The notes beneath the pieces were generated by a model that saw only the letters and a list, made by a program, of their open reading frames with translations, made no database searches and was not told where the DNA came from. From Actinomycetota bacterium (GTDB lineage Bacteria; Actinomycetota; Acidimicrobiia; IMCC26256; PALSA-610), in contig PLBO01000067.1 of the NCBI GenBank assembly GCA_003134555.1, positions 1 to 34,677 of the forward strand: DNA of 34,677 nucleotides, written 5' to 3'. Position numbers and translations under genes: made by a program. Below, piece after piece: positions 14,733 through 32,308 of this stretch (positions within the stretch are counted from its first letter, which is position 1; every line of letters starts with the position of its first letter).

Positions 14733-16628
14733 TCAGCCGATTCGGGGCGGACCGATGAAGACCGCCATGGGCATGCCGAGGCCGAGCATCTGCGAGATCA
14801 AGCGCTGTGTGCTCACGGGCACACGCGGCGCGAGCGCGAGCATGAACAGGTTGTCGTCGATTTGCGCGACGAGATCGCCGAGCCCGGCACCGCGGAGCTC
14901 GCCGGCCACCTCTGCGTGCAGCCGGTCGAACTCCGCCCGTTCGGCATCGGATCGAGGGTCGAACGCGGCCACCTGCGAGAAGCGCCCATCGCGACGCCAG
15001 TTCGCGATGTCGGGCCCCGTCGCGAGGTGCACTTCGAGCGCAGGCGTACGGTCGTCGATCACGTGATAGCGGGTCGCGCCGGGCCGGAAGGACTCCGCGG
15101 CACGCACATCGAAGCCGCGGCGGTCGAGCTCGTTCAGCAACCCGAAGCCGGCCGAGCCGATCGCCTGCGCGTCGGGCAGCCAGGTCACGAGATACGGCCC
15201 GCGATCGCCGCCGACCCGGCGGCGGCCGAGCTGCGTGAGCGCGTCGGCGGTCGGCACGACCAGCGCCCCGAGCGACTCGTTGATGCGCGGTGTCTGCACC
15301 GTGACACTCGACGCCTGGAACGCGAACGCGACGCTCGCGATCAACGTCACGGCCGCGAGCGCGGCCGCGCCGGCCGGCGCGAGGTTGCGGAGCATGCGAT
15401 GGTCGGCGCCGATCCGAGCGCGTAGGAGCTCGACCGCGGTCCAACCGATCGCGAACAGCATGAGCGCAACGAGTCCCCATGCCCAGAGCATCAGATAGAA
15501 CCAGACCGTTCCGAAGATCCGCGCCGACGACACCAACCCGAGCGCGAGCGCGGCAACGATCACGGCGTCGAGCAGGAGGAGCACGCGCCGGCGAAGCCGC
15601 CACGCGACGATCACCGACGCGCCGAACACGATCAGGAGGAGGACGCCGGGAAGCCGGGAGCCGGTGACCTCGAGCGCGCCGCTGTCGCGGACCAGTGTCT
15701 GGCTGAGCAGCTTCCACGGATCGAGCTGCGACAACAACACGTCGACGCCGCGACCGAATCCGATGGGCGAGGTCGACGAGGGCGGGTGGCTGAAGTAGTC
15801 GCGGATGATGCCGAGATTTCCCGGCGAATGCGCGAATTGGTCGATGACCGGGGGGATCCACAGCACGACGCCGGCCGCGACGCTGATTCCGCCCCACCGC
15901 CAGAGCGCGCGACGCGCGTCGGCATCGCCCCGGCGCTTGAACGCGGACCGTCCGACCATGACCACGGTGACGAGTACCAGCCCGCCGATCAATCCGAGAT
16001 ACGAGATGTGAGTCTGCATGCAGAACGATCCGGCGAACACGAGGATGGGAAGCATCGCCAGATCGTCCGCGAGCACGGACCACACCGCGAGCACGAACAC
16101 GAACCACCACAGCACGGGTAGGTACGGATTCCAGGGCAGGGTCAGGAGGAACGCGCCGTACGCGCGCGTCAGCACCGCGAGCACCGCGGCGATCCCGAGC
16201 AGGAGCGGACGGCCACCTCGCCGCAGGGCCATCCAGAGCGCAAGCCCCATCGCCACGACGTCGAGCACGACGTTGGCGGCGAACAATCCGTACGACGAGC
16301 CCCCGAGGAGTTTCCATACGGGCCAGAGCGCGTAGAAGCTCAGTGGTCCGGGATGACTCCCACCGTTCGGCCCGAACGGTCCGATGCGACCGGCCAACCC
16401 GATGAGCGGCGGGTGACTCGTGACGTCGCGCACGCGGATCTCGGTCTGCGCCATGTCGAGCAGCGGATACCAGTGGGGACGTCGCAGTTGAACGAGCGCG
16501 ACCACGAGCGGGAACGCGAGGACGACGATCAGCGCCGCGAAGAGCAGGGCCGTAGCACCGCGGAGCCGGCGATCCGGCGGCAGGCGACGCGCATCGACCG
16601 GCGAATCGAGCACGATGTCGTCGATCAC
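14733..16628 (-). CDS. Large GT-C-like membrane protein, HPGP family, paralogue 2
   Basis: A 631-residue polytopic protein, about eleven helices, related to the gene at 9711-11495. The first external loop reads HWYPLLDMAQTEIRVRDV, followed by GGSHPGPLSFYALWPVWKLL and LPWNPYLPVLWW; the soluble C-terminal region includes VAAFDPRSDAERAEFDRLHA. Acidic residues in the first loop are a GT-C hallmark, so transfer from a lipid-linked sugar is likely but unproven. The start is GTG 16628, overlapping the upstream epimerase stop as GTGA. This places it in the same translation-coupled operon and gives a short cytoplasmic N-terminus with an Arg-rich stretch before helix 1. Confidence 0.78.
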   Translation of the reverse strand: MIDDIVLDSPVDARRLPPDRRLRGATALLFAALIVVLAFPLVVALVQLRRPHWYPLLDMAQTEIRVRDVTSHPPLIGLAGRIGPFGPNGGSHPGPLSFYALWPVWKLLGGSSYGLFAANVVLDVVAMGLALWMALRRGGRPLLLGIAAVLAVLTRAYGAFLLTLPWNPYLPVLWWFVFVLAVWSVLADDLAMLPILVFAGSFCMQTHISYLGLIGGLVLVTVVMVGRSAFKRRGDADARRALWRWGGISVAAGVVLWIPPVIDQFAHSPGNLGIIRDYFSHPPSSTSPIGFGRGVDVLLSQLDPWKLLSQTLVRDSGALEVTGSRLPGVLLLIVFGASVIVAWRLRRRVLLLLDAVIVAALALGLVSSARIFGTVWFYLMLWAWGLVALMLFAIGWTAVELLRARIGADHRMLRNLAPAGAAALAAVTLIASVAFAFQASSVTVQTPRINESLGALVVPTADALTQLGRRRVGGDRGPYLVTWLPDAQAIGSAGFGLLNELDRRGFDVRAAESFRPGATRYHVIDDRTPALEVHLATGPDIANWRRDGRFSQVAAFDPRSDAERAEFDRLHAEVAGELRGAGLGDLVAQIDDNLFMLALAPRVPVSTQRLISQMLGLGMPMAVFIGPPRIG

Positions 16629-17656
16629 GGCAGCGCCTTCAGCGCGCGCAGCAAGCCCGGTCGAACCGGTGACTGGTGATGCGATCGCGCGCCGTCAGCC
16701 GACTCGCGACGATGCGCGAGGAACCACTCGTACGACTCGATCACCATCGACGCGTTCGAGTGTTGCGGCTCCCAACCGAGCTCCGTCCGCGCCAACGTCG
16801 AGTCGAAGAACAACGACTCGCTGTACAGCAGCCAGTGGTAGGGCGCGAACGGCGCGAGGCCGAGCGCGGCGAGTGCGCGCATCGCGAACCGCGCCGGCGC
16901 GACGGGCAACGATCGCAACCGCGAGCCGGTCTGTGCGTGGTCGACGAGCGCCTGCAGTGTTTCCCGCATCGTGCCGAACTCGAGCGCGCCGATGTTGTAC
17001 ACCGAGGGTCCGGCGCGATCCCCTGCGCGCAAACAGGCATCGGCCAGGTCGGCCGCATGCACCAGCTGGTACCGATTGTTCCCGCCACCGAGCAGGAACA
17101 CGGGCGCGCCGTCGGCCACGAAGTCGAACAAGAGCGCGATCACGCCGAGACGACCGTGACCGAGGACCGTGCGGGGCCGCACGATCGTGACGTCGAGCCC
17201 GGAAGCGATGGCGTCGTGACACAAGATCTCGGCCCGCAGCTTGGCTCGGCCGTACGCCTCCAGCGGACGGCCGGGGGTGGCTTCGGTCACGGGATTGTGA
17301 TCGGGAATGCCGAACACCGCGCTCGACGACGTGTGCACCACCTTGGCGACGCGCGCGTCGCGCGCCGCGACCAGCACGTTCGCGGTTCCGCCGACGTTCA
17401 CCTCGTCGAACAGCGCCCGATCCTTGGCGAGCGGGACCTGCGCGACGTTGTGGAACACGACGTCGATGCCGGCGCAGGCGCTGCGCACCGCGGCCCGGTC
17501 TCGCACGTCGCCGGCGACGAAGTCGGCCGCGGCGAGGCTCGGGCCGGGCGGGTTCACGTCGAAGATCCGAACCGCATCGCCGCGGGCCAGGGCCTGCTCG
17601 GCCAACACGGTGCCGAAGTATCCGCTGCCGCCCGTGACCAAGAGCGAGCGCGCCAT
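16625..17656 (-). CDS. NAD-dependent epimerase/dehydratase (extended SDR), second of pair
   Basis: A 343-residue extended short-chain dehydrogenase/reductase. The Rossmann motif is LLVTGGSGYFG (about 5-15), the acidic residue for NAD is in FDVNPPGPS, and DFVAGDVRD gives the adenine-binding Asp. The catalytic Tyr and Lys are in LEAYGRAKLRAE, with TSSSAVFG supplying the Ser. Such enzymes make nucleotide sugars, but some act on sterols; the segment FVADGAPVFLLGGGNNRYQLVHAADLADA also recalls 3-beta-HSD-like members. Neighbouring glycosyltransferases favour a sugar. ATG 17656 overlaps the preceding stop by one base. Confidence 0.86.
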   Translation of the reverse strand: MARSLLVTGGSGYFGTVLAEQALARGDAVRIFDVNPPGPSLAAADFVAGDVRDRAAVRSACAGIDVVFHNVAQVPLAKDRALFDEVNVGGTANVLVAARDARVAKVVHTSSSAVFGIPDHNPVTEATPGRPLEAYGRAKLRAEILCHDAIASGLDVTIVRPRTVLGHGRLGVIALLFDFVADGAPVFLLGGGNNRYQLVHAADLADACLRAGDRAGPSVYNIGALEFGTMRETLQALVDHAQTGSRLRSLPVAPARFAMRALAALGLAPFAPYHWLLYSESLFFDSTLARTELGWEPQHSNASMVIESYEWFLAHRRESADGARSHHQSPVRPGLLRALKALP

Positions 17657-18729
17657 CAGAGCCGGTCACCGCGCGCGAGACACCAGCGCACGCTCGCCCG
17701 CATGCCGTCGAGCAACGCCGTGGCCGGCTCGTATCCCAGCTCTTTGCGCGCCCGGGAGATGTCGCACGCGATCGTGTCCTTCAGTTCTCCGAGGACGTGC
17801 AAGACCTGCACGTAGCGCCCACTCGCCTGCGCGAGCGCGTCGAGCCTCTCGGCGACCACACCCGCGATCCGCGGAATGGCCAAGGGGCGCCGATTCGACA
17901 CGCTCAGTCCTTCGGCCTCGATCGCGTCACGCACCGTTCGCAACACGTCGCGCAGCGCGTAGGGTTCGGCGTCGGCGATCCAGTACGCGTTGCCGCAGGC
18001 GGCGTCGACTGACTCAGCCAGCAGCACGCCCTGCACCAGGTTCCCCGTGAAAACCATCGAACGCCGCTGAGTACCGGGCCCGACCAGCGGGAAGCGTCCG
18101 CGCCGCACCGCCGACAGGAACTGCGTCTGGCGCTCCGGCTGATACGGACCGTAGAACCAGGGCGGGCGCACGACGACGGTCGCGAGGTCGCCGCGGTCGT
18201 AGCTGCGCTGCACGAGCTGCTCCGCCTCGAGCTTCGAGCGCCCGTACGCCATGTACGGAGCGAACGGCGAGTCCTCGTCGAAGCGATCGTCACTCGTGCG
18301 GTTCGCGCCGAACGGGGAGTTCGACGAGACGTGCACGAACCGCGACGCACCGACCCGGCGGGCCCGGTCGAGCACCAGCTGCGTGCCGCCGACGTTCACG
18401 TCGAACAGCTCCCGTACGTAGCGAGCCGGATGGATGACCGCCGCGGCGTGGATCACCGACGCGCGCCCGACACCGTCGAAGAGCGCGTCGATCACCGCGG
18501 GATCGCGCACGTCGCCGACGACGACCTCGATCCGCGGGTCGACCACCTCGATCAGCGACGCGTCGCCGGGCTCGTGCACCAGACACCGGATGCGACGGCG
18601 GCTCGCTTGTCCGGCAAGCGTCCGCACGAGGTTTTGGCCGAGCCAGCCCGCCGCGCCGGTGACGACGACGGTCGACGCCGGCACAGTCGCCTTCGGCGTC
18701 TCACCCAACTCCGGCTCGCCAGCGCGCAC
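17656..18729 (-). CDS. NAD-dependent epimerase/dehydratase (extended SDR), first gene of operon
   Basis: A 357-residue extended SDR. The nucleotide-binding motif is VVVTGAAGWLGQNLV (about 21-35), GDVRDPAVIDALF follows, and VHVSSNSPFG with MAYGRSKLEAEQLVQ supplies the Ser, Tyr and Lys of the active site. VVRPPWFYGPYQPERQTQF is a typical substrate-domain entry. It is related to the following gene but not a close copy. GTG 18729 is chosen because a minus-strand TAGCGT lies 8 bases upstream, fitting a leaderless transcript; the roughly 18 residues before the Rossmann strand are more than usual, so a start further in cannot be excluded. It heads a four-gene operon with two membrane glycosyltransferase-like proteins. 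Confidence 0.85.
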   Translation of the reverse strand: MRAGEPELGETPKATVPASTVVVTGAAGWLGQNLVRTLAGQASRRRIRCLVHEPGDASLIEVVDPRIEVVVGDVRDPAVIDALFDGVGRASVIHAAAVIHPARYVRELFDVNVGGTQLVLDRARRVGASRFVHVSSNSPFGANRTSDDRFDEDSPFAPYMAYGRSKLEAEQLVQRSYDRGDLATVVVRPPWFYGPYQPERQTQFLSAVRRGRFPLVGPGTQRRSMVFTGNLVQGVLLAESVDAACGNAYWIADAEPYALRDVLRTVRDAIEAEGLSVSNRRPLAIPRIAGVVAERLDALAQASGRYVQVLHVLGELKDTIACDISRARKELGYEPATALLDGMRASVRWCLARGDRL

Positions 18730-18816: not shown

Positions 18817-20499
18817 GTGTCCCGAGCCGAGCCCGTCGCCGACGCTCCCGCGCGTTCCGGCCGCTTCCTGCGCGACGAAGGCCCGCGCAACGCCGTCGCG
18901 CTGGCGATCGTCGCGCTCGTATTCGCGCTACCGCTGCGCGGTCTGTTGCGCGCGCCGGGCCCGCCCATGGAAGAGGGCTTCATGCTCGTGTTCCCCGAGC
19001 AGGTCCTGAAGGGCGCGATACCCAACCGCGACTTCCTGCACCTGTACGGACCGGGCAGCTTGTGGGCGCTCGCGGGGGTGTTCAAGGTGTTCGGCGTCTC
19101 GCTGCTCAGCGAGCGCGGGTTCGGCCTGGTGCAGCAGCTCGCGATCGTGTTCGGGATCTACGCTCTCGCGCGCCGATGGGGTCGAGTGCTGGCCGTCGCC
19201 GCGGCGGTGACGTCGGGACTCATCATCATCCCGTTCGGCCTGACCGCGTTGGCGTGGGTCGGCGGTGTCGGTCTCGCGGTGTGCGGCCTGGCGGCCGGCG
19301 TCGAGGCGCGCGCCGACCGCGACGATCGCGGCGCACAGCGATGGGCGCTGGTCGCGGGATTGCTGCTCGGTATCGCGGTGTTGTTCCGCCTCGACCTCGT
19401 GCTCGGCGTCGGTCTGGCGACGCTCGCACTCGCGTGGGGCATGCCGCGGGCGCGCATCTCGCGCCTCTGCGCCGGCCTCGTCATCGGCATCCTGCCGTAT
19501 TCGATTCACATCGCGACGGCCGGTCCCGGACACGTGTTCCAGGGCATGGTGATCGATCCGGTGTTCCGGCTCCGCGGTGGAAGGAGCCTGCCGGTCCCTC
19601 CTTCGTGGGGGCATCTCGACGGCTTCCTCCAACGGGCGGGCGCGCTCGCCCAGTTGTCGTGGCCGCTCCCGGCCCTCGCGCGTCCGCACCAACTCTTCCT
19701 GTGGTTCTTCCTCCTCCTCGGCGCGATCGCGCTCGTGCTCCGGCAAGGTTGGCGCGCGACGCGCGCGGATCCCGAGTCGATCACGGCGCGAACCCTTCTC
19801 GTCGTCGGGCTCTTCGGCGCCGGCATCCTTCCGCAAGCGTTGCAACGCGTCGACTCCGGACATTTCGCGTGGGTGAGCTGTGTGGTCTTCGCGTTCGTTC
19901 CGATCGCGTTGTACGAGCTCGCCCGAAAGCACGCTCCGACGGTGCCCGTCCGGCGCCTCGCGCTCGGTTCGGTCGCGTCGATCCTGGCGCTGCTCGCGTT
20001 CGTCATCCCCGCCTTCACGATCAGTACGTACGCCGACTACTCGCTCCAGACGTTCGGCATCCATCGCGCTTCGTACAAGATCGAACACGACGGCCGCGTC
20101 TTCTACTACGGCAAGCCCGACCGCGCGGCCGCGGCGAACATGGTGATCGCCGCGGCGGCGCGGATCTCGAAACCCGGACAACGGCTCTTCGTCGGACCCG
20201 TGAACCTGCGCAAGACCCCTTACAGCGACGCGTACCTCTACTACATGCTCCCCGACCTCGTTCCGGCGACCTACTACATCGAGATGGACCCGGGCGTCGC
20301 CAACGCGAACAACTCGCGTCTTCCGCAGGATCTCGAGTCGGCCGACGTCGTGATCCTCTCCGCGATCTGGGAGGACTGGTCGGAGCCCAACGACTCCCGC
20401 AAGGTCGGATCCGACGCGTCCGAGAAGATCCTCGCCCGCGACTTCTGCCGGGTCGGCACGTATCTCGACCTGTACCAGCTGTTCAAGAAGTGCCACTGA
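18817..20499 (+). CDS. Polytopic membrane protein, probable GT-C glycosyltransferase
   Basis: A 560-residue protein with roughly ten membrane helices and a soluble C-terminal region of about 150 residues. The first external loop carries EEGFMLVFPEQVLKGAIPNR followed by DFLHLYGPGSLWALAGVFKV; the acidic pair and the LYGPG motif are typical of GT-C-like membrane proteins of unknown sugar specificity. The tail includes KTPYSDAYLYYMLPDLVPAT and ESADVVILSAIWEDW, as in other actinobacterial members where a globular domain follows the membrane part. GTG 18817 is supported by the TAGCTT box; GTG 18815 is out of frame. The polyprenol-sugar synthase gene follows after 30 bases, which suits a donor and user pair. 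Confidence 0.75.
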   Translation: MSRAEPVADAPARSGRFLRDEGPRNAVALAIVALVFALPLRGLLRAPGPPMEEGFMLVFPEQVLKGAIPNRDFLHLYGPGSLWALAGVFKVFGVSLLSERGFGLVQQLAIVFGIYALARRWGRVLAVAAAVTSGLIIIPFGLTALAWVGGVGLAVCGLAAGVEARADRDDRGAQRWALVAGLLLGIAVLFRLDLVLGVGLATLALAWGMPRARISRLCAGLVIGILPYSIHIATAGPGHVFQGMVIDPVFRLRGGRSLPVPPSWGHLDGFLQRAGALAQLSWPLPALARPHQLFLWFFLLLGAIALVLRQGWRATRADPESITARTLLVVGLFGAGILPQALQRVDSGHFAWVSCVVFAFVPIALYELARKHAPTVPVRRLALGSVASILALLAFVIPAFTISTYADYSLQTFGIHRASYKIEHDGRVFYYGKPDRAAAANMVIAAAARISKPGQRLFVGPVNLRKTPYSDAYLYYMLPDLVPATYYIEMDPGVANANNSRLPQDLESADVVILSAIWEDWSEPNDSRKVGSDASEKILARDFCRVGTYLDLYQLFKKCH

Positions 20500-20529: not shown

Positions 20530-21258
20530 GTGCGCGCGCTCGTCGTGACTCCGACCTATCAGGAGTCGGAGAACATCGTGGAGTTCCTGCACCGCGCGCG
20601 TGAGGCCGTGCCCGACGCCGACATCCTCGTCGTCGACGACAACAGCCCCGACGGTACGGCGGATCTCGTCGACGAGGTCGGCGCACGGCTCGGGCACATC
20701 GAGGTGTTGCGGCGGCCGCGCAAGATCGGCATCGGCGACGCCGTCCGCGCGGGCTTCGCGGTGGGCATCGACCGCGGGTACGACGTCGTCGTGCAGATCG
20801 ACGCCGACCTCTCGCACGATCCGGCCGCACTGCCGCAGCTCCTCGCCGAGATCGAGCGCGGCGCCGATGTCGCGATCGGTTCCCGGTACGTTCCCGGCGG
20901 CTCGATCCCCCACTGGCCCTGGTACCGGCGGGCCGTCTCGAAGTGGGGCAACCGCTACGCAACGCTCGTGCTCGGCATCCCGATTCGCGATGCGACGTCC
21001 GGTTACCGGGCGTTTCGCGCCGACACGCTCGAGTCGGCCGACTACGCGCAGACGCGCTCCAAGGGCTACGGCTTCCAGATCGAGCTCTGCTACCGCGTCT
21101 GGAAGCACGGTGACCACATCGCGCAGGTGCCGATCACGTTCACCGACCGCGTGCGCGGTCACTCCAAGATGTCGTTGGGGGTGGGCGCGGAGGAGCTTGC
21201 GCTCGTCACGTGGTGGGCGCTCCGCGACCGGGTCCTCAAAGGCCGTTCACGGCGCTGA
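20530..21258 (+). CDS. Polyprenol-phosphate mannose synthase-type GT2 glycosyltransferase
   Basis: A 242-residue cytoplasmic GT2 enzyme of the dolichol-phosphate-mannose synthase family. It would move a sugar, most likely mannose from GDP-mannose, to a polyprenyl phosphate, making the lipid donor for GT-C enzymes. Landmarks are VVTPTYQESENI, VVDDNSPDGTADLVDEVG (about 34-51), the metal-binding QIDADLSHDP, IGSRYVPGGSI, IRDATSGYRAF and the family-specific DRVRGHSKMSLG. There is no C-terminal membrane domain, so it is the short, soluble type like the catalytic part of mycobacterial Ppm1. It sits next to many candidate users of the product. Another sugar, such as glucose, cannot be excluded. Confidence 0.9.
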   Translation: MRALVVTPTYQESENIVEFLHRAREAVPDADILVVDDNSPDGTADLVDEVGARLGHIEVLRRPRKIGIGDAVRAGFAVGIDRGYDVVVQIDADLSHDPAALPQLLAEIERGADVAIGSRYVPGGSIPHWPWYRRAVSKWGNRYATLVLGIPIRDATSGYRAFRADTLESADYAQTRSKGYGFQIELCYRVWKHGDHIAQVPITFTDRVRGHSKMSLGVGAEELALVTWWALRDRVLKGRSRR

Positions 21259-21274: not shown

Positions 21275-23212
21275 TCAGGGCGACGACGACCGCAGTCGGG
21301 GCAGCCACCACTTCCAGACGACGACCGCGCCGGCGGAGGTGAGATGCTGGTCGTCGGGCTGCCAGAGATGCACACCTCCGACGCTCTCGACGCGATGGCC
21401 GCCCGGGCACACGAGTGTTCGCCAGTCGACGATCTGCACCTTGGGTATCGATCGCGCGACGGTCGCGAAGATCTCGTTGAGCGCGGCAATGCGCCGTGGG
21501 TCGCTGCGCTCGGGCATCCGGTCGTTGGCGTTCCCCGCGCCGTAGCACGGCACCTCGAACAGGTACACGGTCCGCCCGTCGGCTGTGAGCGTTTGGAGCG
21601 CCGTCCGCAACGACAGCGCGATGAGATCGGTCCACGCGCTCGTGCCAAACCGAATGACGCCGAATGCGGTCTGCTGATCGAGGGCCTCCCACGCGCCGGC
21701 CATGAGTGCGAGGCGAGCGCCGGGATCGTTGCGCATCGACGCACGCCAGCGCGCTTGCCAGCCGTCGCACTCTTTGGGATTCGCGAGCACGCGCCCGTCG
21801 GAGACGTGGTCGCTCCGCACGATGCCGCAGCCCAACTCCGCGTCGCCGCCGACCGAGATGCCGAGCTCGCGCGCTCGAAGTGCGCCGCCGTATCCGAGCA
21901 CCAGCGCGGTCGAGTCGCCGAACAGGTCGACGCGCAATGCCTTCGCGTCGTGGTTCCCGCTGAGTGTGTTCAGCTTGGTGAGATTGCTCGGCGGGAGCGG
22001 CTTGGGCGCGGCGACGGTCGTGACGAGCACGGCGGCAACGAGCGTGAGCGCCGCGAAGTATGCGATCGCGCCCCGGCTGCCCGAGCGCCGGGCAACCTTC
22101 CCGACTCGGAAGGGTTGCTCGACGAAACGGAACGAGAGCTCGGCGAGCACGATCGAGATGACGACCCTGACGCCGAACAGAAACACCCCGTCGAATCCCG
22201 GACGGGGCGTGACGAACACGCGCACGGGCCAGTGCCACAAGTACAGGGAGTACGAGCGGAGCCCGATCGCGACGAGCCAGGGCGCGCGCAGCAAACGCGC
22301 GATCGGTGCAGTCGGTACCGCCACGACGACCGCGATGATCACCGCGCACAGCACCGCGAACACGAGGAAACCGCCGCGGTAGAGCGCAAGGGTGCGATCC
22401 CGGGTGACGCGCATCGTCACGAGGATTGCTACGAGCGATGCGGCGGCGAGGAGGGGAACCGTGCGCGCCGCCGTTGTATTGGAACGCGCCCAGCGCGTGA
22501 ACACCTCCCACGGTTCGCCGGCGCCCGCGAGCACGCCGAGCGCGACTCCCACCAGCAGGCCCATCGCGTGTGAATCGCTCCCGAGATACGCGCGGGTCGG
22601 ATCGCCGGTCGGCGACACGAGCACACCCATCCACACCGTCGACGCGATGGCTCCGACCAGAGCGATCGTCGCCGTCCGGAACGGATGCCGGACGACCACG
22701 CGCCGAGCTGCGAACAGCGCGAGCGGCAGAACCAGGTAGAACTGCTCCTCGACGGCCAGCGTCCACATGTGCAAGAAGGGCGACGGCCGCCCGAGATTGC
22801 CGAAGTAGTTGCCCTTGGCGAAGATGATCACCCAGTTCGCGCAGTAGAACAACGTGCCGAGGGCCTGCGCGCGCAGGTCGTGGAGCTCGGCGTTCGAAAA
22901 GCTGATCGCGGCCGCGCACAACACGACGACCGTGAGCGTCGCGAGCGCGGGAAGGAGCCGGCGGGCGCGCCGCGCCCAGAAATTTCCCAGCGACACCGAG
23001 CCCGTTCGCTCGATCTCCCGGGTGACGAGCCGCGCGATGAGAAAGCCCGAGACCACGAAGAACACGTCGACGCCGAGGAAACCTGCGGGCAGGACCGACG
23101 GCGCGAAATGAAAGACGACGACGGCCGCGACCGCGATCGCCCTCAGGCCGTCGAGCCCGCCGACGTACGCGTCCTCAGCCGCGCGGGGCACTCGTTGTTC
23201 GGTAACGGTCAT
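21275..23212 (-). CDS. Acyltransferase-3 with C-terminal SGNH domain (OafA-like), first copy
   Basis: A 645-residue membrane O-acyltransferase that would acetylate a cell-surface glycan. The AT3 domain opens with GGLDGLRAIAVAAVVVFHF, containing the R-x10-H motif (Arg24, His35). GFLGVDVFFVVSGFLI, FWARRARRLLPAL and FLHMWTLAVEEQFYLVLPL follow, all standard. About ten helices precede a periplasmic SGNH esterase-like domain: VDLFGDSTALVLGYG (nucleophile Ser in GDS), AELGCGI and, near the end, QPDDQHLTSAGAVVVWKW with the Asp and His. ATG 23212 suits the family N-terminus; GTG 23269 would add 19 residues. It is paralogous to the gene at 27229 and divergent from the gene at 23288. Confidence 0.88.
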   Translation of the reverse strand: MTVTEQRVPRAAEDAYVGGLDGLRAIAVAAVVVFHFAPSVLPAGFLGVDVFFVVSGFLIARLVTREIERTGSVSLGNFWARRARRLLPALATLTVVVLCAAAISFSNAELHDLRAQALGTLFYCANWVIIFAKGNYFGNLGRPSPFLHMWTLAVEEQFYLVLPLALFAARRVVVRHPFRTATIALVGAIASTVWMGVLVSPTGDPTRAYLGSDSHAMGLLVGVALGVLAGAGEPWEVFTRWARSNTTAARTVPLLAAASLVAILVTMRVTRDRTLALYRGGFLVFAVLCAVIIAVVVAVPTAPIARLLRAPWLVAIGLRSYSLYLWHWPVRVFVTPRPGFDGVFLFGVRVVISIVLAELSFRFVEQPFRVGKVARRSGSRGAIAYFAALTLVAAVLVTTVAAPKPLPPSNLTKLNTLSGNHDAKALRVDLFGDSTALVLGYGGALRARELGISVGGDAELGCGIVRSDHVSDGRVLANPKECDGWQARWRASMRNDPGARLALMAGAWEALDQQTAFGVIRFGTSAWTDLIALSLRTALQTLTADGRTVYLFEVPCYGAGNANDRMPERSDPRRIAALNEIFATVARSIPKVQIVDWRTLVCPGGHRVESVGGVHLWQPDDQHLTSAGAVVVWKWWLPRLRSSSP

Positions 23213-23287
23213 GTCCTCATGGGGTTGGTACCATCGCCGCTTCCAAAGTCTGGACGACCAGTCGAACACGGCTCGGGGGGAACTGAC

Positions 23288-25759
23288 ATGAGCGCGGTCA
23301 GCTCCGGCACGCCCGCAAGGGGCGGTGCCGACACCCGCGTGCCGCGCTGGCTCACGATCCTGCTCGTCAGTCTCGCGGGGCTCCTGCTCGAGGTCGGTTA
23401 CACCCGGATCGTCTCCTTCAAGCTCTGGTACTACTACACCTACCTGGTGATCGGGCTCGCGCTCTTGGGCATCGGCTCGGGCAGCGTGTTCGTGGCGGTG
23501 TTCTCCCCGGTGCGGCGCTGGACGACCGAGCGCATCATCGCGGTGTGCTCGATCTGGGGCGCGGTCAGCATCGCGCTCGGCTATCTCGTGGTCGCGAAGA
23601 TGCGGGTCAACACGATCGCGATCTGGGACTACGGCTCGCGAGCGTCGTTCACCAACCTGTTCCGGCTCGGCGTCATCTGCTTCGCGATCTTTGCCACGTT
23701 CATCGCGTTCGGGATCATCGTCGCCGTGCTCCTCGGCCGGGCCGGCGACGGCATCGGTCGCATGTACTTCTCCGATCTCGTCGGCGCCGGACTCGGCTGC
23801 CTCTTGGCGATCCCCTTGATCACGCGCCTGGGGCCGCCGCGCGTCGTCATGCTCGCGGCCCTGATCTTCGCGGTCGTGGGGTTGGCGTCGTCGGCGCCGA
23901 AATCACTGCTCTTCGGCTTCGCCGCGATCACGAGCATCGTGCTTGTAGTCACGGTCGTCGCCACGAACGCCCTGCCCGACGTGCGAACCGAGGACGGAAA
24001 GCTCTACACCCCGGTCACGCTCTACTCGGCGTGGGGGCCGGTGTTCCGCGTCGACGTCGTACAGCTCGGACCCGACACGTCCAACTATCTCTTGGTCCAC
24101 GACGGCACCTTCGGCTCGGGCATCCGGCGGTTCGACGGCAACCCCGCGTCGCTCGGGTTCTACGCGAAAGACCCGCGCGCGATCCCGTTCGACGTACTCG
24201 GAAAACCCCCCGCGCGCGAGCTGATCATCGGCTCGGCCGGCGGCAACGAGATCCTGGCCTCGCTCTACAACAAGGCGCCGAACATCGAAGCCGTCGAGCT
24301 GAACCCCGTGACGGTCTCGTTGCTGACGAATCGCTTCGCCGACTACACGGGCCATCTCCCCCAGCAACCCGCGGTGCACCTCCACCAAGGCGACGGTCGC
24401 TCGTATCTCGCGCGCACCAACGCGCAGTACGACCTCACCTGGTACGTCGCGCCCGACAGTTACGCGGCGACGAATGCGGCGTCGTCGGGCGCGTTCGTGC
24501 TCTCGGAGAGCTACCTGTACACCACGCAGATGATCAAGACGACACTCCAGCACCTCACCGACAACGGCATCATGGTGGTGCAGTTCGGTGAGCTGAACTT
24601 CGACACTCCGAACCGGACGAGCCGCTACGTCGTCACCGCGCGCAAGGCGCTCGAGGAGCTCGGCGTCCGCGACCCCAACAATCACCTGCTCGTCGCCGCG
24701 CAGCTCACCAAGTCGGGCGCGTTCTCGACCATCGTCGTCAAGCGCACCGCGTTCACCAAGGCCGAAACCGATCGGTTCCTCGGTGGCATCGCACACCTGC
24801 CCGAGCAGCACCCGTACGCGGCGCCGGGCCACGACATCAACAACGGCATCGTGAGCCAGTTGGCGTCGGGATCGAACGCGCAGGTCGCGGCGATCGTGTC
24901 GCACTCGACCAAGAACATCACTCCCGTCTACGACGACGCTCCCTACTTCTGGCACTTCTCGCGCTTTCGCGACGTGCTCGCCCACATCGGGCAACCGCTC
25001 AAGAACAGCGACCCGGAAGACGCGATAGGTGAACGCGTACTCCTCCTGCTCCTCGCGATCGCGGCGCTGTACGCGGCGGTGTTCCTGTTGGCGCCGTTCT
25101 TCGCGGTGCGCAAGAAGTGGCGCGCCCTGCCGGCGAAGGGCACGTCAGCTGTCTATTTCGCCGCGCTCGGTCTCGGATTCATGTTCTTCGAGATCACGAT
25201 GATCCAGCGGTTGGTGCAATTCCTCGGCTACCCGACCTATTCGCTGACCGTCACTCTCGCCGCGATCCTCCTGTCGACCGGCGTCGGTGCACTCCTCAGC
25301 CGCAGGCTCGTCGATCGGGCTCGCACCGCGGTGCCGATCCTCCTCGCGATACTCGCCGCGCTCACGCTGTTCTACGAGCTCGCGCTCCCGTCGATCCTCG
25401 ACGGGCGATTGCTCTCCACCGGTCTCGCGGTCCGCGTCGTCTTCGCGGGCGCGATCCTCACCCCGCTCGGCCTCTGCCTCGGTATGTTCATGCCCCTCGG
25501 ACTCGGACGGATCGCGTCCCTGACCGAGCACGGCGAGGAGTACGTGGCGTGGGGCTGGGCCGTCAACGGCTTTTTCTCCGTCATCGGTTCCGTGCTCACC
25601 ACGATCCTGTCGATGGCGCTGGGCTTCCGCGCGGTGCAGTACGCGGCGCTCGGCGCCTACGCGATCGCGGTCGTCGCCTTCACGAGGCTGCCGGCGGCAA
25701 CGCGGCACTCCAACGTCGCGCTCGACGACGAACCGAATCTCCAGGCCGTCACGGTGTGA
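23288..25759 (+). CDS. Membrane-embedded spermidine-synthase-like protein
   Basis: An 823-residue three-part protein: about seven N-terminal helices (from VPRWLTILLVSLAGLLLEVG), a methyltransferase-like domain, then about eight C-terminal helices. The middle domain has a glycine-rich SAM-type loop ELIIGSAGGNEILASLY, the acidic VELNP and GDGRSYLARTNAQYDLTWYV, as in polyamine aminopropyltransferases. The catalytic Asp usually found in YD.I..D..DP is not evident, the segment reading APDSYAATNAASSGAFVLSE, so polyamine synthesis is doubtful. The C-terminal membrane part FFEITMIQRLVQFLGYPTYS is typical of this fused group. ATG 23288 has a GGGGGGA ribosome-binding site; a long open extension upstream overlaps the divergent gene and was rejected. 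The role is unknown. Confidence 0.82.
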   Translation: MSAVSSGTPARGGADTRVPRWLTILLVSLAGLLLEVGYTRIVSFKLWYYYTYLVIGLALLGIGSGSVFVAVFSPVRRWTTERIIAVCSIWGAVSIALGYLVVAKMRVNTIAIWDYGSRASFTNLFRLGVICFAIFATFIAFGIIVAVLLGRAGDGIGRMYFSDLVGAGLGCLLAIPLITRLGPPRVVMLAALIFAVVGLASSAPKSLLFGFAAITSIVLVVTVVATNALPDVRTEDGKLYTPVTLYSAWGPVFRVDVVQLGPDTSNYLLVHDGTFGSGIRRFDGNPASLGFYAKDPRAIPFDVLGKPPARELIIGSAGGNEILASLYNKAPNIEAVELNPVTVSLLTNRFADYTGHLPQQPAVHLHQGDGRSYLARTNAQYDLTWYVAPDSYAATNAASSGAFVLSESYLYTTQMIKTTLQHLTDNGIMVVQFGELNFDTPNRTSRYVVTARKALEELGVRDPNNHLLVAAQLTKSGAFSTIVVKRTAFTKAETDRFLGGIAHLPEQHPYAAPGHDINNGIVSQLASGSNAQVAAIVSHSTKNITPVYDDAPYFWHFSRFRDVLAHIGQPLKNSDPEDAIGERVLLLLLAIAALYAAVFLLAPFFAVRKKWRALPAKGTSAVYFAALGLGFMFFEITMIQRLVQFLGYPTYSLTVTLAAILLSTGVGALLSRRLVDRARTAVPILLAILAALTLFYELALPSILDGRLLSTGLAVRVVFAGAILTPLGLCLGMFMPLGLGRIASLTEHGEEYVAWGWAVNGFFSVIGSVLTTILSMALGFRAVQYAALGAYAIAVVAFTRLPAATRHSNVALDDEPNLQAVTV

Positions 25760-27125
25760 CGTCCGGCGCGGCGATCCCGCGTCGGCCGCGGCCTCGCAAC
25801 CACCGGACGATCGCGACGGCCCCGACCGCGGCGAGCAACGCCAGCGAAGGTTCCGCGCCCGCCCGAAAGCGGGTCTGCCCGTAGGTGATCATCGTGTTGA
25901 GCGTCACGATGATCGCCGGCACGACGAGCACCCACCACGCGGCTCGCGCCCGACGTCGCCAGAGCACCACCGCACCACCGACCGCGAGCAGCAACGTCGG
26001 GTAGTACGCGACGAGGCCGAGACGCGTCACCCATTCCTCGCGATCCTCACCCGTGTTGAGTTTCACCATGTCGAGCGGACGGAAGAGGCTCCAAGTGCGG
26101 CCGAGGCGCGCCAGGACGACGAGGGGAACTCGTGACGCGTGCCCCTTCATGTAGTCGAGTCCCCGGCGGCGAAACGCGCCGGCCACCTGCGACTGGTCAC
26201 CGGGCGGCGGGTTGTCGGCGCACGACTGGAGCGTCCAGAAGCCGGTTGCCCGGCCTTGGTACATCGCATCGCAGTTCGCGCCGGCCAGGGTCAGACCGTC
26301 GTTCGTCGAGATGAACGTCGGATCGTGGAACCGCGCGAGGTTGAAGCCCACCCACGGCGCCATCACGACGAGCGCGGCGGCGAGCGCGACGAGCGCCTGC
26401 CTCCACCGCACCGCCCGGGGCTGCGGCAGTGAACACGCGACGACGATCGCGAGCAGCGGTACGAGCAGGACGAACTCGACGCGTGCGAGCGCGGCCAGAC
26501 CGCAAACGGCTCCCACAACCGCGGCGCGTCGCCAACTCGGTCGATCGCGCCACCACAGCGCACCCAGCATCGCGCCCACGACGGTCAGCGCGGTGAGGGT
26601 CTCCGACATCACCAGCCCGTCCTCGACCCAGATCGTCGGGCTCACCGCCGCGATCGCGGCCGCGACGAGACCGACCGCATCGCCGCCGACCCGTCGACCG
26701 AGCAGGCCGACGAGTCCGACGAGCAACGTTCCGAGCAGCACCATCGTGTAGCGGTGCTCGCGTACGTGATCGTGCAGCGGCTCCTTGATGATCCACGAGA
26801 GCGGCGCGTGTTCGACGAGCCACGACACGGGCGCGAGCACCACAACGGTGAGCGGCGGATGATCGGCGGCCGGCGGCGGCGGGACACCGGGATGGATGAA
26901 CGCCGACAGCGGCTCGTTGAAGCCGTGGCCGGCCGCCACGTAGTTCGCTTCCGCGTTGTAGAAGAGCTCGTCGCCTCTCAGGCATTTGCTCGGAGAGCTG
27001 CCCACGTGCCTGCCGTCGGCCAGTACGAGCGGGCACGGACCCGCCTTCGCGATCGCGACGTACGCGACACGGATTCCGAACGCGACCGCGATGATGACGA
27101 GCAGCACACGCCCGAATCGGGTCAC
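25749..27125 (-). CDS. GT39/ArnT-like membrane glycosyltransferase, paralogue C
   Basis: A 458-residue paralogue of the genes at 8357 and 13376. It has GDELFYNAEANYVAAGHGF, ADHPPLTVVVLAP, the signature AGANCDAMYQG and the final TYGQTRFRAGAEPSLALLAAV. Its first external loop is longer than in the others (KCLRG and a Pro-rich stretch VPPPPAADHPPL). GTG 27125 is preferred: a minus-strand TAGGTT ends 8 bases upstream and the resulting length matches the paralogues. A longer frame to 27290 would run into the divergent acyltransferase gene. Its 3' end overlaps the convergent spermidine-synthase-like gene by 11 bases. Donor and acceptor are unknown. Confidence 0.84.
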   Translation of the reverse strand: MTRFGRVLLVIIAVAFGIRVAYVAIAKAGPCPLVLADGRHVGSSPSKCLRGDELFYNAEANYVAAGHGFNEPLSAFIHPGVPPPPAADHPPLTVVVLAPVSWLVEHAPLSWIIKEPLHDHVREHRYTMVLLGTLLVGLVGLLGRRVGGDAVGLVAAAIAAVSPTIWVEDGLVMSETLTALTVVGAMLGALWWRDRPSWRRAAVVGAVCGLAALARVEFVLLVPLLAIVVACSLPQPRAVRWRQALVALAAALVVMAPWVGFNLARFHDPTFISTNDGLTLAGANCDAMYQGRATGFWTLQSCADNPPPGDQSQVAGAFRRRGLDYMKGHASRVPLVVLARLGRTWSLFRPLDMVKLNTGEDREEWVTRLGLVAYYPTLLLAVGGAVVLWRRRARAAWWVLVVPAIIVTLNTMITYGQTRFRAGAEPSLALLAAVGAVAIVRWLRGRGRRGIAAPDVTP

Positions 27126-27228
27126 GGCGGGCAAACCTAGTGCCGCGCGCGCCGGAGATTCGGGCTTCGAAACGTCGACGTCCGCGCGTGGAGGCTCACC
27201 AACCTGTCGCTCCCGTAACCTCTGCCTC
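27126..27228. promoter_or_regulatory. Divergent promoter, GT39-like paralogue C / second acyltransferase
   Basis: TAGGTT on the minus strand (plus 27134-27139) ends 8 bases before GTG 27125. TAACCT on the plus strand (27216-27221) ends 7 bases before GTG 27229. Both fit leaderless starts, and neither side has a Shine-Dalgarno sequence. Confidence 0.5.
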
Positions 27229-29262
27229 GTGATCGAGGGGACCGAGACGGCGGGCCGCGCCGCGCCCACGGCGGAGTGGGAGCCCGCCACCGAGGTGCCC
27301 GAGCGCAGTTCGACCGCAACCGGCTTCCGTTATCACGCCGCGCTCGACGGCCTGCGCGCGGTCGCCGTGCTGTCGGTCATCGCGTATCACTACGACTACT
27401 CGTGGGCGAAGGGCGGCTTCCTCGGCGTCGACACGTTCTTCGTGCTCTCCGGGTTCCTGATCACGACGCTGCTCGTGCTGGAGTTCCGGCGCGAGTCCAC
27501 GGTGCGATTCGCCGCGTTCTGGGCGCGCCGGGCGCGCCGCCTGCTCCCCGCTCTCCTGCTGGTCTTGGCCTTCGTCGCGGTGTACTCGCATCGCGCCGTC
27601 GTGCCGTGGGAGCGCAACAGCGTGCGCGACGACATGTTCGCGAGCCTGTTCTACGTCGCGAATTGGCGCTTCATCCTCGACCGGCAGGGCTACTTCCAAC
27701 TGTTTTCCGCCGCGTCCCCGCTGCGCCACATGTGGTCGCTCGCGATCGAGGAGCAGTACTACCTCCTGTGGCCGCTGGTGGTGCTCGCGTGCCTGCGCCT
27801 CGGCCGCGGATCGACACGCGTGCTCGGTTGGGTGTGTGTCTTCGGTGCCGCGGGATCGATCGTCTCCATGGCGCTGCGGTTCCACCCCGGCGATCCGTCC
27901 GGTGCGTACTACGCGACCGACGCCCGCGCGCACACACTGCTCATCGGTGCCTTGCTCGCGCTGCTGCTGCTCGCGTGGAAACCGAGCGCGCGGGCGCGAC
28001 GCGCGCTCGCGGTCGCCGCGGTCCCGGCAATCGTCGCGGTGCTCGTCGCCGCGCACGGCGCGTCGGGGACCGCCGCGAGCTACTACCGCGGCGGCTCGGC
28101 GTTGTTCGCCGGAGTGGTCGCACTGCTGATCGCGGGTGTGGTGCAGCCCGGACCGGTTTCGGCGCTGTTGTCGACACAACCGCTCGCGTGGATCGGCCGG
28201 ATCTCCTACGGCTTGTACTTGTGGCACTGGCCGATCGACGTCTGGCTGGTGCCGTCACGGGTGCACGTCGGAACCAACACGCTCAACGTTCTCCGCCTCG
28301 GCGTCACCTTCGCGGCCGCGATCGCGTCGTACTACCTCGTCGAGCGTCCGATCCGCGAGCGCACGTGGACCCTGCGCCTGTCGGCCGCCGCCTTCGCGCC
28401 CGCGGTTGCCATCATGGTTGCGATCATCACGGCCTCCGCCGTGGGCGCAACCGCACCGCCCGGGTTCATCTGGGGCTACGGCGACCCGCTGCTGTGCGGC
28501 ACGCCGCGCCCGAGCGAGACGAGCGAGGCGATCGCCGCGGCCGCCAAGATGGGCCCGCTCTCACTGCCCGCGTCCGCTCGCAACCAACGCATCCTGCTCG
28601 TCGGCGACTCGACGGCGTGCAGCCTGTGGCCGGGCCTGAAAGCGGCCGGCGACGCGGCCGGCATCGCGACCGACCAGGGCTCCGTCTTCGGATGCGGTGT
28701 CGCGAGCGGACAGATCACGACGACCCGCAACGAAGCGATCACACCCCACTCGTCGCGCTGTCCCGAGCTCGTCGACTCCGACGTGAGCAAGGCACTTGCC
28801 CGCGCCCGGCCGACCATCGTCATATGGATGAGCATCTGGGAGAAGTCCGACCTCGTGGTCGACGGCCACACGGTCGTGGCGGGGACGCCCGCCGGGGAGA
28901 AGGAGATCATGGCGCGCATGGACGCGGCACTCGCGCGCCTCACCGCCGGCGGCGCGCGCGTCGTACTGATCACGGAGGCCGGGCCCGCGCCCAACCCCGC
29001 CCAGGGCACGCAGACCACGAGCCTGAAGGCCGACAACGACGGCTACGTGCGCCTGAACGCGCTGCTGCGCCGCTTCCAAGCGCGCCACCGTCGCGACGTC
29101 TCCCTTGTCGACCTCGCGACGAAGCTGTGCCCGAGCGGAACTCCGTGCCCCGACCGCGTCGAGGGACTGCACGCCCGGCCCGACGGCCACCACTTCACGC
29201 CGACGGCCGCAACCTGGGCCGCGCGCTGGATCCTGACCGAAAGCCTCGGAGCCGCGCGGTGA
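27229..29262 (+). CDS. Acyltransferase-3 with C-terminal SGNH domain (OafA-like), second copy
   Basis: A 677-residue membrane O-acyltransferase. Its AT3 domain starts at AALDGLRAVAVLSVIAYHYD, with Arg43 and His54 forming the R-x10-H motif. GFLGVDTFFVLSGFLI, FWARRARRLLPALLL and LRHMWSLAIEEQYYLLWPL follow. After about ten helices the SGNH domain has ILLVGDSTACSLWPG (Ser nucleophile), GSVFGCGVASG, IVIWMSIWEKSD and RPDGHHFTPTAATWAA with the closing Asp and His. It resembles the copy at 21275 throughout but with clear divergence, so the two probably modify different positions or use different acyl groups. GTG 27229 is supported by TAACCT seven bases upstream. Its stop overlaps the next start as GTGA, coupling it to the AftB-type transferase. 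Confidence 0.88.
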   Translation: MIEGTETAGRAAPTAEWEPATEVPERSSTATGFRYHAALDGLRAVAVLSVIAYHYDYSWAKGGFLGVDTFFVLSGFLITTLLVLEFRRESTVRFAAFWARRARRLLPALLLVLAFVAVYSHRAVVPWERNSVRDDMFASLFYVANWRFILDRQGYFQLFSAASPLRHMWSLAIEEQYYLLWPLVVLACLRLGRGSTRVLGWVCVFGAAGSIVSMALRFHPGDPSGAYYATDARAHTLLIGALLALLLLAWKPSARARRALAVAAVPAIVAVLVAAHGASGTAASYYRGGSALFAGVVALLIAGVVQPGPVSALLSTQPLAWIGRISYGLYLWHWPIDVWLVPSRVHVGTNTLNVLRLGVTFAAAIASYYLVERPIRERTWTLRLSAAAFAPAVAIMVAIITASAVGATAPPGFIWGYGDPLLCGTPRPSETSEAIAAAAKMGPLSLPASARNQRILLVGDSTACSLWPGLKAAGDAAGIATDQGSVFGCGVASGQITTTRNEAITPHSSRCPELVDSDVSKALARARPTIVIWMSIWEKSDLVVDGHTVVAGTPAGEKEIMARMDAALARLTAGGARVVLITEAGPAPNPAQGTQTTSLKADNDGYVRLNALLRRFQARHRRDVSLVDLATKLCPSGTPCPDRVEGLHARPDGHHFTPTAATWAARWILTESLGAAR

Positions 29263-30971
29263 CCACGCTGCTCGCTTCCGACCAGAACGACGAACCCGAC
29301 GTGCAACGGCGGCCGTCGCGTTGGGCCCGACTCGGCCTGGCCGCGCCCGCATACCTTCCCGCGCTCATCATCGCGGTCGGCGGTTGGCAGCACCGCTGGA
29401 TGGACGAGGACGCGTTCATCAACCTGCGCATCGTCGACCAGATCTTCGCCGGCCACGGTCCGGTCTTCAACGCCGGCGAACGCGTCGAGGCCTCGACGAG
29501 CACGTTGTGGATCGTCGCGCTCGTCGTGGGCCGCGCGCTGTTCGGCGTGTTCACGAGCATGGAATGGATCGCGCTGCTCGCAAGCCTGGGCGCGGCGGTC
29601 GCCGCCTTCGCGGTCGCGGGCAAGGCAACTCGGCTCCTACACCGCGACGAGAACGGCATCGTCGTCCCGGTCGGGCTGATCCTCGTCGCGGTGGTGAAGG
29701 TCGTATGGGACTTCTCGACCTCGGGACTGGAAATGGGCCTCGTGTGGCTGTGGATCGCGGCGGCGTGGCTCGTGCTCGTCCATGCCGCGCGGTCGGCGGA
29801 GATCAGCGGGCGGAAGCGCCTCGGTTTCGGCGTGGTGCTCGGACTCGCGCCGCTCGTGCGTCCGGATCTCGGCTTGATGATGCTCTGCGTACTGGTCGCG
29901 TGGTTCATGCTCGTGCGCCCACGGCGAATCGTGTTCGACGTCGTCGCGATCTTCGCGCTGCCGCTCGCCTACCAGATCTTCCGCATGGGCTACTACGCGA
30001 TGCTCGTCCCCACGACTGCACTCGCCAAGGACGCGGGCGGACTGCACTTCGGTCAGGGTTGGGACTACGCCCGGAATTTCATCGGGCCCTACCGGCTGTG
30101 GCTGACCGCGATATTGATCGCGGCGACCGTCGCCTACCGCTCTCTCGCCAACCGCGACCGCCGGCTCGCGATCGCCACTGCGGCCATGCTCGCGGCCGCT
30201 CTCGTTCACGCGCTCTACATCACCGCCGTCGGCGGCGACTACATGCACGGTCGGCTACTGCTTCCCGCGTTCTTCGCGCTCGCGCTGCCGGCGTCGATCT
30301 CGGTCCCGACGATCGCGGTCACCCGCCGGACGCTGGCCGTCATCGGCATCAACGCGTTCGCGGCCGTATGGGCGATCGTGAGCATCGTCGCGTTCCGACC
30401 CCCGCCGAACCCCAGGTCGTTCATCCTCAGCCCCATCACCGACTTTCGCGCCGCGTCGCACGCGACGCTCCATCCGACCGACATCCAGTTCGGCCTGAAC
30501 GGATACGAGGCCGCGGCCGCATACGACCGTGGAGTGCGCGGCTATTTCAAGGTTGCCGACAAGCATCCGCTCCCCGCGCTCGATCCGCACGCGTTCGTGT
30601 TGACCCTCGGCTCGATCGGTGTGCCCGCGTACGACGCGGGCCGGCGCATCTGGGTCGTCGACATCGGCGGGCTCGCGGAACCGCTAGCGGCGCGCACGGC
30701 GCCCGTTCCCGGGCGCGCCGCCGGCCATCGCAAGCAGATCGACGAAGCGTGGTACGACGCGCGCTTCGGCGCGATCACGGCAACGAACAACTCGAAGGAC
30801 GACGCGGCCCGGCGCGCGCTTTCCTGCGGCCCGATCCCCGGGTTGCTCGACGCGGTGGACGCGAAGATGACTCCGGGCCGCTTCTTCTCGAACATCCGGC
30901 ACAGCGTCGACAACACGACGTTGCGCATCCCCACCGACCCTGTGACCGCCGAGCAGAAGTGGTGCCGATAG
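29259..30971 (+). CDS. aftB: AftB-type terminal arabinofuranosyltransferase homologue
   Basis: A 570-residue GT-C membrane protein that matches, from memory, mycobacterial AftB (Rv3805c) along its length. Shared blocks include HRWMDEDAFINLRIVDQI with acidic residues 49-51, GPVFNAGERVEASTSTLW, DFSTSGLEMGLVW, AYQIFRMGYYAMLVPTTALA, GGDYMHGRLLLP, DIGGLAEPLAART and RFFSNIRHSV. AftB adds terminal beta-1,2-arabinofuranose from decaprenyl-phospho-arabinose to cell-wall arabinan. About ten helices precede a periplasmic C-terminal domain. Start GTG 29259 overlaps the acyltransferase stop by 4 bases, linking arabinosyl-type transfer with O-acylation. Whether this organism uses arabinose is not shown; another pentofuranose is possible. 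Confidence 0.87.
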   Translation: MTTLLASDQNDEPDVQRRPSRWARLGLAAPAYLPALIIAVGGWQHRWMDEDAFINLRIVDQIFAGHGPVFNAGERVEASTSTLWIVALVVGRALFGVFTSMEWIALLASLGAAVAAFAVAGKATRLLHRDENGIVVPVGLILVAVVKVVWDFSTSGLEMGLVWLWIAAAWLVLVHAARSAEISGRKRLGFGVVLGLAPLVRPDLGLMMLCVLVAWFMLVRPRRIVFDVVAIFALPLAYQIFRMGYYAMLVPTTALAKDAGGLHFGQGWDYARNFIGPYRLWLTAILIAATVAYRSLANRDRRLAIATAAMLAAALVHALYITAVGGDYMHGRLLLPAFFALALPASISVPTIAVTRRTLAVIGINAFAAVWAIVSIVAFRPPPNPRSFILSPITDFRAASHATLHPTDIQFGLNGYEAAAAYDRGVRGYFKVADKHPLPALDPHAFVLTLGSIGVPAYDAGRRIWVVDIGGLAEPLAARTAPVPGRAAGHRKQIDEAWYDARFGAITATNNSKDDAARRALSCGPIPGLLDAVDAKMTPGRFFSNIRHSVDNTTLRIPTDPVTAEQKWCR

Positions 30972-31601: not shown

Positions 31602-32308
31602 TCACATCGGAGTGGTTCCGACCGAACCCGGCTCGCGAGACTCCCGGAACCGACGCATCACCTGGTCGAAGGGAGCGGGTCGGGCGAAGAGATATCCCTG
31701 GCCGAAGTGGCAACCGAGCCGTTGGATCCGCCGCAGCTTCCGGTCGGTGTCGATTCCTTCGGCGATGACCTTCAGATCGAACGCCGGCCGAGCTGGACCA
31801 TGATCTGCAACAGCACGAGGTCGGAGCCCTCGTCCTCGAGTACGGCGACGAACGACCGATCGATCTTGAGCTCGTCGATCGGAAGCCGGTGTAGATAGGT
31901 GAGGGAGCTGTATCCGATTCCGAAGTCGTCGAGCGCGAGACGAACGCCGAGCGACTTCAGCTCGTTCAGCAGGGCAATGGTCTCGTCGGCGTCGTCGACG
32001 AGCACCGACTCGGTGATCTCGAGCCCGAGCAGCGAAGGCGCGAGACCCGTCTCGCGGAGCGCGCTCTCGACCACCTCCACGACCGAACGACTGTCGAACT
32101 GCCGCGGCGACACGTTCACCGACACACCGACCCCCGGTGCGACGTCCTGCCACCCGGCGCAGTCGTGCGCGGCGCGCTGGAGGGCGCACATCAGGTTCTC
32201 GCAGCACAGGGCTCTATCGGCGGCGCCGAGAGCAGTGCTGAGGCCAATGAACCGGCGCGAGCCCGCCGACGGTGCACCATTCGGCCCGATTACGCCGTCC
32301 CGCGGCAT
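31602..32308 (-). pseudogene. EAL-domain (c-di-GMP phosphodiesterase) relic, truncated and frameshifted
   Basis: From ATG 32308 one frame encodes most of an EAL domain: VSVNVSPRQFDSRSVVEVVE, GLEITESVLVDDADE, LALDDFGIGYSSLTYLHRLP and DELKIDRSFVAVLEDEG. After VQLGR it runs out of frame and stops near 31772. The rest of the domain continues in the next frame as FDLKVIAEGIDTDRKL and LGCHFGQGYLFARPAPF to the stop at 31602. Adding one G-C pair near 31784 would restore LGRAFDLK, as in intact homologues, so a single-base deletion (or sequencing error) is likely. The N-terminal part with the E-A-L motif is missing; the upstream DNA belongs to the sulfatase gene. Without that glutamate the protein could not hydrolyse c-di-GMP. 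Confidence 0.85.

Follow-up and report, generated by a model that had tools for sequence, protein, structure and literature searches.

Does arabinosyl transfer of the AftB type occur outside the actinobacteria that carry mycolates, and what would it serve there? The question is raised by a gene in a contig of an Actinomycetota bacterium (PLBO01000067.1, assembly GCA_003134555.1), analysed here over its whole length of 34,677 nucleotides (the window). The metabolism of decaprenyl/polyprenyl-phosphoryl-D-arabinofuranose (DPA) and the arabinofuranosyltransferase AftB have both been studied as tuberculosis targets, as though they were bound to arabinogalactan and mycolates. The window gene encodes a real member of the AftB clade of GT-C glycosyltransferases, in a class that is not mycolate-bearing. 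DPA is its probable donor, its acceptor site is altered, and an acyltransferase accompanies it as a conserved partner. The explanation that we favour, with a probability of about 0.6, is that this protein is a DPA-dependent enzyme that caps a surface glycan other than arabinogalactan, and that the AT3-SGNH acyltransferase encoded immediately upstream acylates the same glycan.

The relationship to AftB is seen at several levels. The frame is open from a GTG start to a TAG stop, and its product contains the motifs AYQIFRMGYYAMLVPTTALAKDA and GGDYMHGRLLL, which match almost letter for letter AYQIFRMGYYGLLVPGTALAKDA and GGDFMHGRVLL in the AftB of M. chubuense (McAftB; PDB 9dlf). When the protein was compared with all PDB chains by phmmer, 9dlf was the sole match (E = 1.4e-54). 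The alignment spans the membrane part (22-372) and takes in the C-terminal extracytoplasmic part as well (443-562); identity to mycobacterial AftB is about 31%. The NCBIfam model of AftB (NF041481) scores 226 bits (E = 4.7e-67), and both matches are far stronger than chance would give. No Pfam family matched the protein. A structure prediction from a five-row alignment had a mean pLDDT of 38 and was kept out of fold searches. In a tree of 52 proteins, including 17 AftB proteins of Mycobacteriaceae and 10 wider GT-C proteins, the window protein falls inside a 42-row AftB clade (support 100/100) from which the 10 wider GT-C relatives are excluded as an outgroup. The label Mycobacteriaceae is our own, for the group (f57) that holds every genome above the AftB equivalog cut-off. 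All 17 of its proteins form one nested branch (100/100), with the window protein outside it and another family of the phylum (f52) as sister (99/94). The diversity of the AftB clade is greater outside Mycobacteriaceae than inside; its deep branches have only moderate support (84-93) and give no firm order of events. The first-pass annotation had pointed to the two blocks as shared with mycobacterial AftB and had described the neighbours as unlike the mycobacterial locus, and it was right on both counts, as AT3-SGNH and other GT-C genes stand where mycobacteria have UbiA.

A donor pathway is encoded in the same genome. On another contig (C83, locus L048), genes for a flippase-like membrane protein, UbiA, DprE1, DprE2 and a HAD phosphatase form a same-strand run. 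The UbiA-type decaprenyl-phosphate phosphoribosyltransferase (364.9 bits against a cut-off of 207), DprE1 (541.8 against 500) and DprE2 (347 against 250) all exceed their curated cut-offs, and DPA synthesis in the host is strongly supported by these genes. Emb homologues, which had been named together with these three as a check on the AftB assignment, are missing: the Emb N-terminal domain was found in 0/41 genomes of the host's order. The UbiA, DprE1 and DprE2 genes are clustered in other genomes of the order, and in G007 they are joined by the flippase-like gene. The host DprE1 (L048:10030-11568; G000:C83:126057-127382) retains the equivalents of Y60, H132, K367 and K418. It has Ala at the C387 site and Thr at the N385 site, and is thus a natural non-Cys DprE1; Cys387 is the residue that covalent DprE1 inhibitors attack in mycobacteria. 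The flippase-like protein (L048:12332-13663) heads the UbiA-DprE1-DprE2 operon, and G007 has a copy with 49% identity at the corresponding position. It matched no NCBIfam family and no PDB chain, and Pfam only under the cut-off; from its sequence and operon context, it is a candidate DPA flippase. The host also encodes an AftD homologue, with a GT-C domain (351 bits) and the AftD carbohydrate-binding domain, and a second AftB-like gene (C100:71995-73437; 37%) that adjoins genes for a GT87 protein and a YfhO-like protein. In another genome, an AftB-like gene (L050, G023:C4:79828-81469) carries an in-frame TGA and is either a pseudogene or the result of a sequencing error.

The donor side of the active site is conserved in the window protein. 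The donor and catalytic residues of McAftB are D62, T91, E172, R221, T274 and R372 in 9dlf numbering (PMC12041299), and all six are identical in the window protein (D51, T80, E158, R201, T253 and R332, respectively). On the acceptor side, the equivalents of D541 and H563 are retained, as they are in most members of the outgroup.

The first-pass annotation would have lost its point had the host been a mycolate-bearing actinobacterium. The host genome belongs to the class Acidimicrobiia, and the related loci derive from Actinomycetota and uncultured Acidimicrobiaceae metagenome-assembled genomes. Neither AftA_N nor GlfT2_N had a match in the host, and the Pks13 model (cut-off 2100 bits) picked up generic ketosynthases only, at 121 bits. 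In each of the searches for Emb, AftA_N, GlfT2_N and Pks13, exactly one control genome scored above the cut-off, C. glutamicum being among the matching controls, so these models work. The absence of matches to the four models supports placing the host outside the mycolate-bearing actinobacteria. Since a tuberculosis-type wall is lacking and yet arabinose-donor genes are present, a different surface glycan is probably arabinosylated. The occurrence outside mycolate bearers is less surprising in view of the Pseudonocardiaceae (wall chemotype IV), which have arabinose in their walls and no mycolates, although Acidimicrobiia are far more distant. In a literature search that covered few subscription journals, no paper dealt with DprE1 together with this class. 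Two other genomes of the host's order, G024 (L096) and G035 (L095), do have AftA_N above its Pfam cut-off, and neither has an AftB-like match; this suggests a mosaic spread of arabinosyltransferases in the order.

Another line of evidence is the distribution of the genes among 295 Acidimicrobiia genomes at least 80% complete, a strong AftB-like gene being defined by E <1e-40. DprE1 was above the cut-off in 100/295 genomes, so that about one third of them have the DprE1-type donor pathway, and a strong AftB-like gene was present in 16/295. DprE1 accompanies 15 of these 16, compared with 92/279 of the other genomes (Fisher p = 1.4e-6; the counts include seven clear sub-threshold or fragmented DprE1, and the genomes are not independent). 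At the family level, the figures are 8/9 and 22/46 (p = 0.025). Outside the class, DprE1 was found in three of the four non-mycobacterial AftB-clade genomes tested (two above the cut-off and one at 496 bits), and it was found in none of the seven genomes of family f45, which have only wider GT-C relatives. In one further genome of those other classes, G386, DprE1 is present and the AftB match is only marginal. In family f29, within the window's class, the wider relatives do co-occur with DprE1, so the contrast between the AftB clade and wider GT-C proteins is not clean. As DprE1 is far commoner than AftB, AftB cannot be the sole consumer of DPA.

A mechanism may be proposed from these elements. 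The UbiA-DprE1-DprE2 operon, on its separate contig, would supply DPA, which might be flipped by the one flippase-like membrane protein of the operon. The AftB-clade enzyme, of the GT-C(A) type, would then take D-arabinofuranose from DPA at the outer face of the membrane. By homology with McAftB, the reaction would follow a retaining mechanism of the AftB type, with D51 as the putative nucleophile and R201 and R332 holding the phosphate, and the linkage would be beta if retention is as in AftB. The sugar would be added, terminally or laterally, to a glycan of the cell surface other than mycobacterial arabinogalactan, and the gene coupling suggests that the AT3-SGNH protein would O-acylate the same chain.

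Several observations weigh against this reading. The window protein scores far under the equivalog cut-off of NF041481 (226 against 1050 bits), a cut-off that is narrow, since C. glutamicum also scores under it. The donor operon and the AftB-like gene are on different contigs. The literature search, with its few subscription journals, found no wall-sugar report for Acidimicrobiia. The six donor and catalytic residues are equally carried by the wider GT-C outgroup and are not diagnostic of arabinose; they indicate a working site for a polyprenyl-phosphate sugar and not the identity of the sugar, and for this reason the conserved active site was not accepted as proof of arabinose. Within the window's order, AftB and DprE1 are not associated (7/10 against 23/31), and G020 (L052; 89% complete) has an AftB-like gene without DprE1 (best match, 61 bits), which reflects either missing sequence or another donor. 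These last three points are also what might be seen if the AftB-clade enzyme used another polyprenyl-phosphate sugar (ribofuranose before epimerisation, xylofuranose or a GT2-derived hexose) and no arabinose. The cluster contains a GT2 that resembles polyprenyl-phosphate sugar synthases, and polyprenyl-phosphoribose pathways are known to supply GT-C enzymes for ribofuranose or other pentofuranoses as well (PMC11127046). However, the same genome has DprE1 and DprE2 with scores over their curated cut-offs, AftB and DprE1 co-occur across the class, and the clade is shared with AftB, a known user of DPA, so that a sugar other than arabinose seems unlikely. In McAftB, the acceptor-side pair F448 and Y449 is essential, the alanine mutants being dead; this pair is deleted in the window protein and in L003 and L004, leaving a three-residue gap, and R560 is replaced by Ala in the window's genus. 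Because of these two losses, the acceptor has probably changed in this genus; at the F448-Y449 site, an aromatic residue is frequent elsewhere in the AftB clade. The missing F448-Y449 pair argues against a true functional AftB that would cap a mycobacteria-like arabinan with the beta-(1->2)-D-Araf (D-arabinofuranose) terminus known from mycobacteria, as do the score under the equivalog cut-off and the lack of Emb, AftA_N and GlfT2_N. Membership of the AftB clade, the AftD homologue with its carbohydrate-binding domain, the full DPA pathway and the conserved D541 and H563 are what a true AftB would show, and even so we regard it as quite improbable. The extension of arabinan-like capping beyond mycolate bearers, as first proposed, stands as far as the non-mycolate host is concerned; capping in the mycobacterial sense is not supported, because Emb is absent and the FY pair is missing.

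The favoured reading also includes the acylation of the capped glycan, for which the evidence is the coupling of the two genes. The upstream protein has an Acyl_transf_3 domain (84 bits) fused to an SGNH domain (61.5 bits) and is thus of the AT3-SGNH type. The GTGA overlap that the first-pass annotation had pointed out is real: the TGA at 29260-29262 ends the AT3-SGNH frame, and the GTG start of the AftB-like gene lies within it, as a 4-bp overlap at 29259-29262. GTGA is also the overlap in L004 and L005, and L003 has ATGA. In L006, where the AftB-like protein is 39% identical, the AftB-like start overlaps as TTGA with the gene of an AT3 protein that has no SGNH domain (the start codons at these overlaps are our own choice). 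Such overlaps of four bases are common in dense bacterial operons, and the arrangement may be mere compact packing, with an acyltransferase that acts on another molecule, whatever the sugar transferred. An AT3 profile search of all AftB loci found AT3 genes only around one AftB subclade, namely the window genus, L006 and G630 (L111), and none near the AftB-like gene of G570 (L112) in the same subclade; a clear AT3 gene was present at 0/15 of the other AftB loci (Fisher p = 3e-4, and still 0.004 with the window genus collapsed, for loci that differ in length and share ancestry). The host's own paralogue locus (L049) has one marginal AT3 fragment. The absence of AT3 genes outside the subclade agrees with packing, but the retention of the overlap at four loci of the genus, its recurrence in L006, where the AT3 protein is a different one and AftB identity is 39%, and the AT3 genes that flank the G630 gene speak for a functional link, so that packing is a substantial possibility, though a doubtful one. 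The suggestion that capping and acylation act together thus holds for the coupling, which is kept in the genus; action on the same glycan is what the coupling would suggest.

The other genes of the window are collected in Table 1. The listed frame of the membrane protein with a spermidine-synthase-like region starts at 22685, its first ~200 amino acids overlap the opposite-strand AT3 gene, and its match in L003 splits at about amino acid 200; in G015 (L063), a 27% homologue is found close to the AftB-like gene. In NCBIfam, the GT2 weakly matches dolichyl/polyprenyl-phosphate sugar transferases. A pair of large membrane proteins that are paralogues of each other (14733-16628 and 9711-11879, both on the minus strand) matches no Pfam family, and the former, the paralogue covered by the NCBIfam scan, matched no family there; L050, L111, L114 and L062 have homologues of the pair in the vicinity of AftB-like genes or fragments. 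An EAL domain (31602-32308, minus strand) is divided between two frames near 31772, owing to a broken gene or an assembly error.

Table 1. Genes of the AftB-like neighbourhood in the window and the basis of their assignment.
Feature	Coordinates	Strand	Basis
AftB-clade GT-C glycosyltransferase, 570 aa	29259..30971	+	phmmer to 9dlf, NF041481, tree, residue map
AT3-SGNH O-acyltransferase, ~677 aa	27229..29262	+	Pfam Acyl_transf_3 and SGNH; likely start GTG 27229
GT-C membrane glycosyltransferase (PMT_2), divergent from AT3-AftB pair	25749..27290	-	Pfam PMT_2; syntenic in L003-L005
Membrane protein, weak spermidine-synthase-like region	23285..25759	+	NF002010 weak; start estimated
Second AT3-SGNH acyltransferase	21275..23269	-	Pfam Acyl_transf_3 and SGNH; syntenic in L003-L005
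GT2 glycosyltransferase, like polyprenyl-phosphate sugar synthases	20530..21258	+	Pfam Glycos_transf_2
GT-C membrane protein, PMT_2-like just under Pfam cut-off	18817..20499	+	Syntenic in L004
NAD-dependent sugar epimerase/dehydratase-type SDR	17656..18729	-	Syntenic in L004
NAD-dependent sugar epimerase/dehydratase-type SDR	16625..17656	-	Syntenic in L004
GT-C membrane glycosyltransferase (PMT_2)	13376..14719	-	Pfam PMT_2

Taken more widely, it is conceivable, and we propose it tentatively, that a part of Acidimicrobiia makes an Emb-independent, acylated surface glycan that carries D-arabinofuranose, by means of DprE1/DprE2, AftD-like and AftB-like enzymes, mycobacterial AftB being one specialised branch of a family that is more varied among actinobacteria. 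If this is true, D-arabinose transfer would be a separate module, in which the DprE1-type donor pathway is joined by AftB-like and, in the host, AftD-like enzymes without Emb; natural AftB variants with an altered acceptor site would be available for structure-function work, and the wall sugars of Acidimicrobiia would become directly testable.

Among the known systems, mycobacterial AftB (Rv3805c type; McAftB, 9dlf/9dlh; CAZy GT89) shares with the window protein the GT-C family by sequence, the catalytic Asp motif, the two phosphate-binding Arg and the C-terminal extracytoplasmic region with D541 and H563. The window protein differs in its low identity, the missing FY pair and the lost R560, and its host in the lack of Emb, AftA_N, GlfT2 and Pks13 and in the AT3-SGNH and GT-C neighbours in place of UbiA. 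The LA_3751/LA_3752-type and wider GT-C proteins (NF047440) have the same donor-site residues (L007, L088-L094, L105 and L106); however, they are the outgroup of the AftB clade, and none of the members tested exceeds 54 bits with the AftB model. Another example is SucT, the succinyltransferase of mycobacterial arabinan (PMC10503756). Its model (NF058601) is the best NCBIfam match of the coupled acyltransferase, although only the AT3 half is aligned and the score (119.7 bits) is far under the cut-off of 1275. A special link to SucT was rejected, as the second AT3-SGNH protein of the window scores alike (115.6 bits); by analogy, the AT3 neighbourhood would fit the acylation of an arabinosylated glycan, as performed by SucT on mycobacterial arabinan. 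Finally, the three-component extracytoplasmic pentofuranose systems of GT136 (PMC11127046) resemble the host system in having a UbiA-type polyprenyl phosphoribose synthase, a HAD phosphatase, a flippase-like membrane protein and a GT-C enzyme, whereas the host epimerases are DprE1/DprE2 and the window GT-C falls in the AftB clade of the tree and is encoded outside the donor operon.

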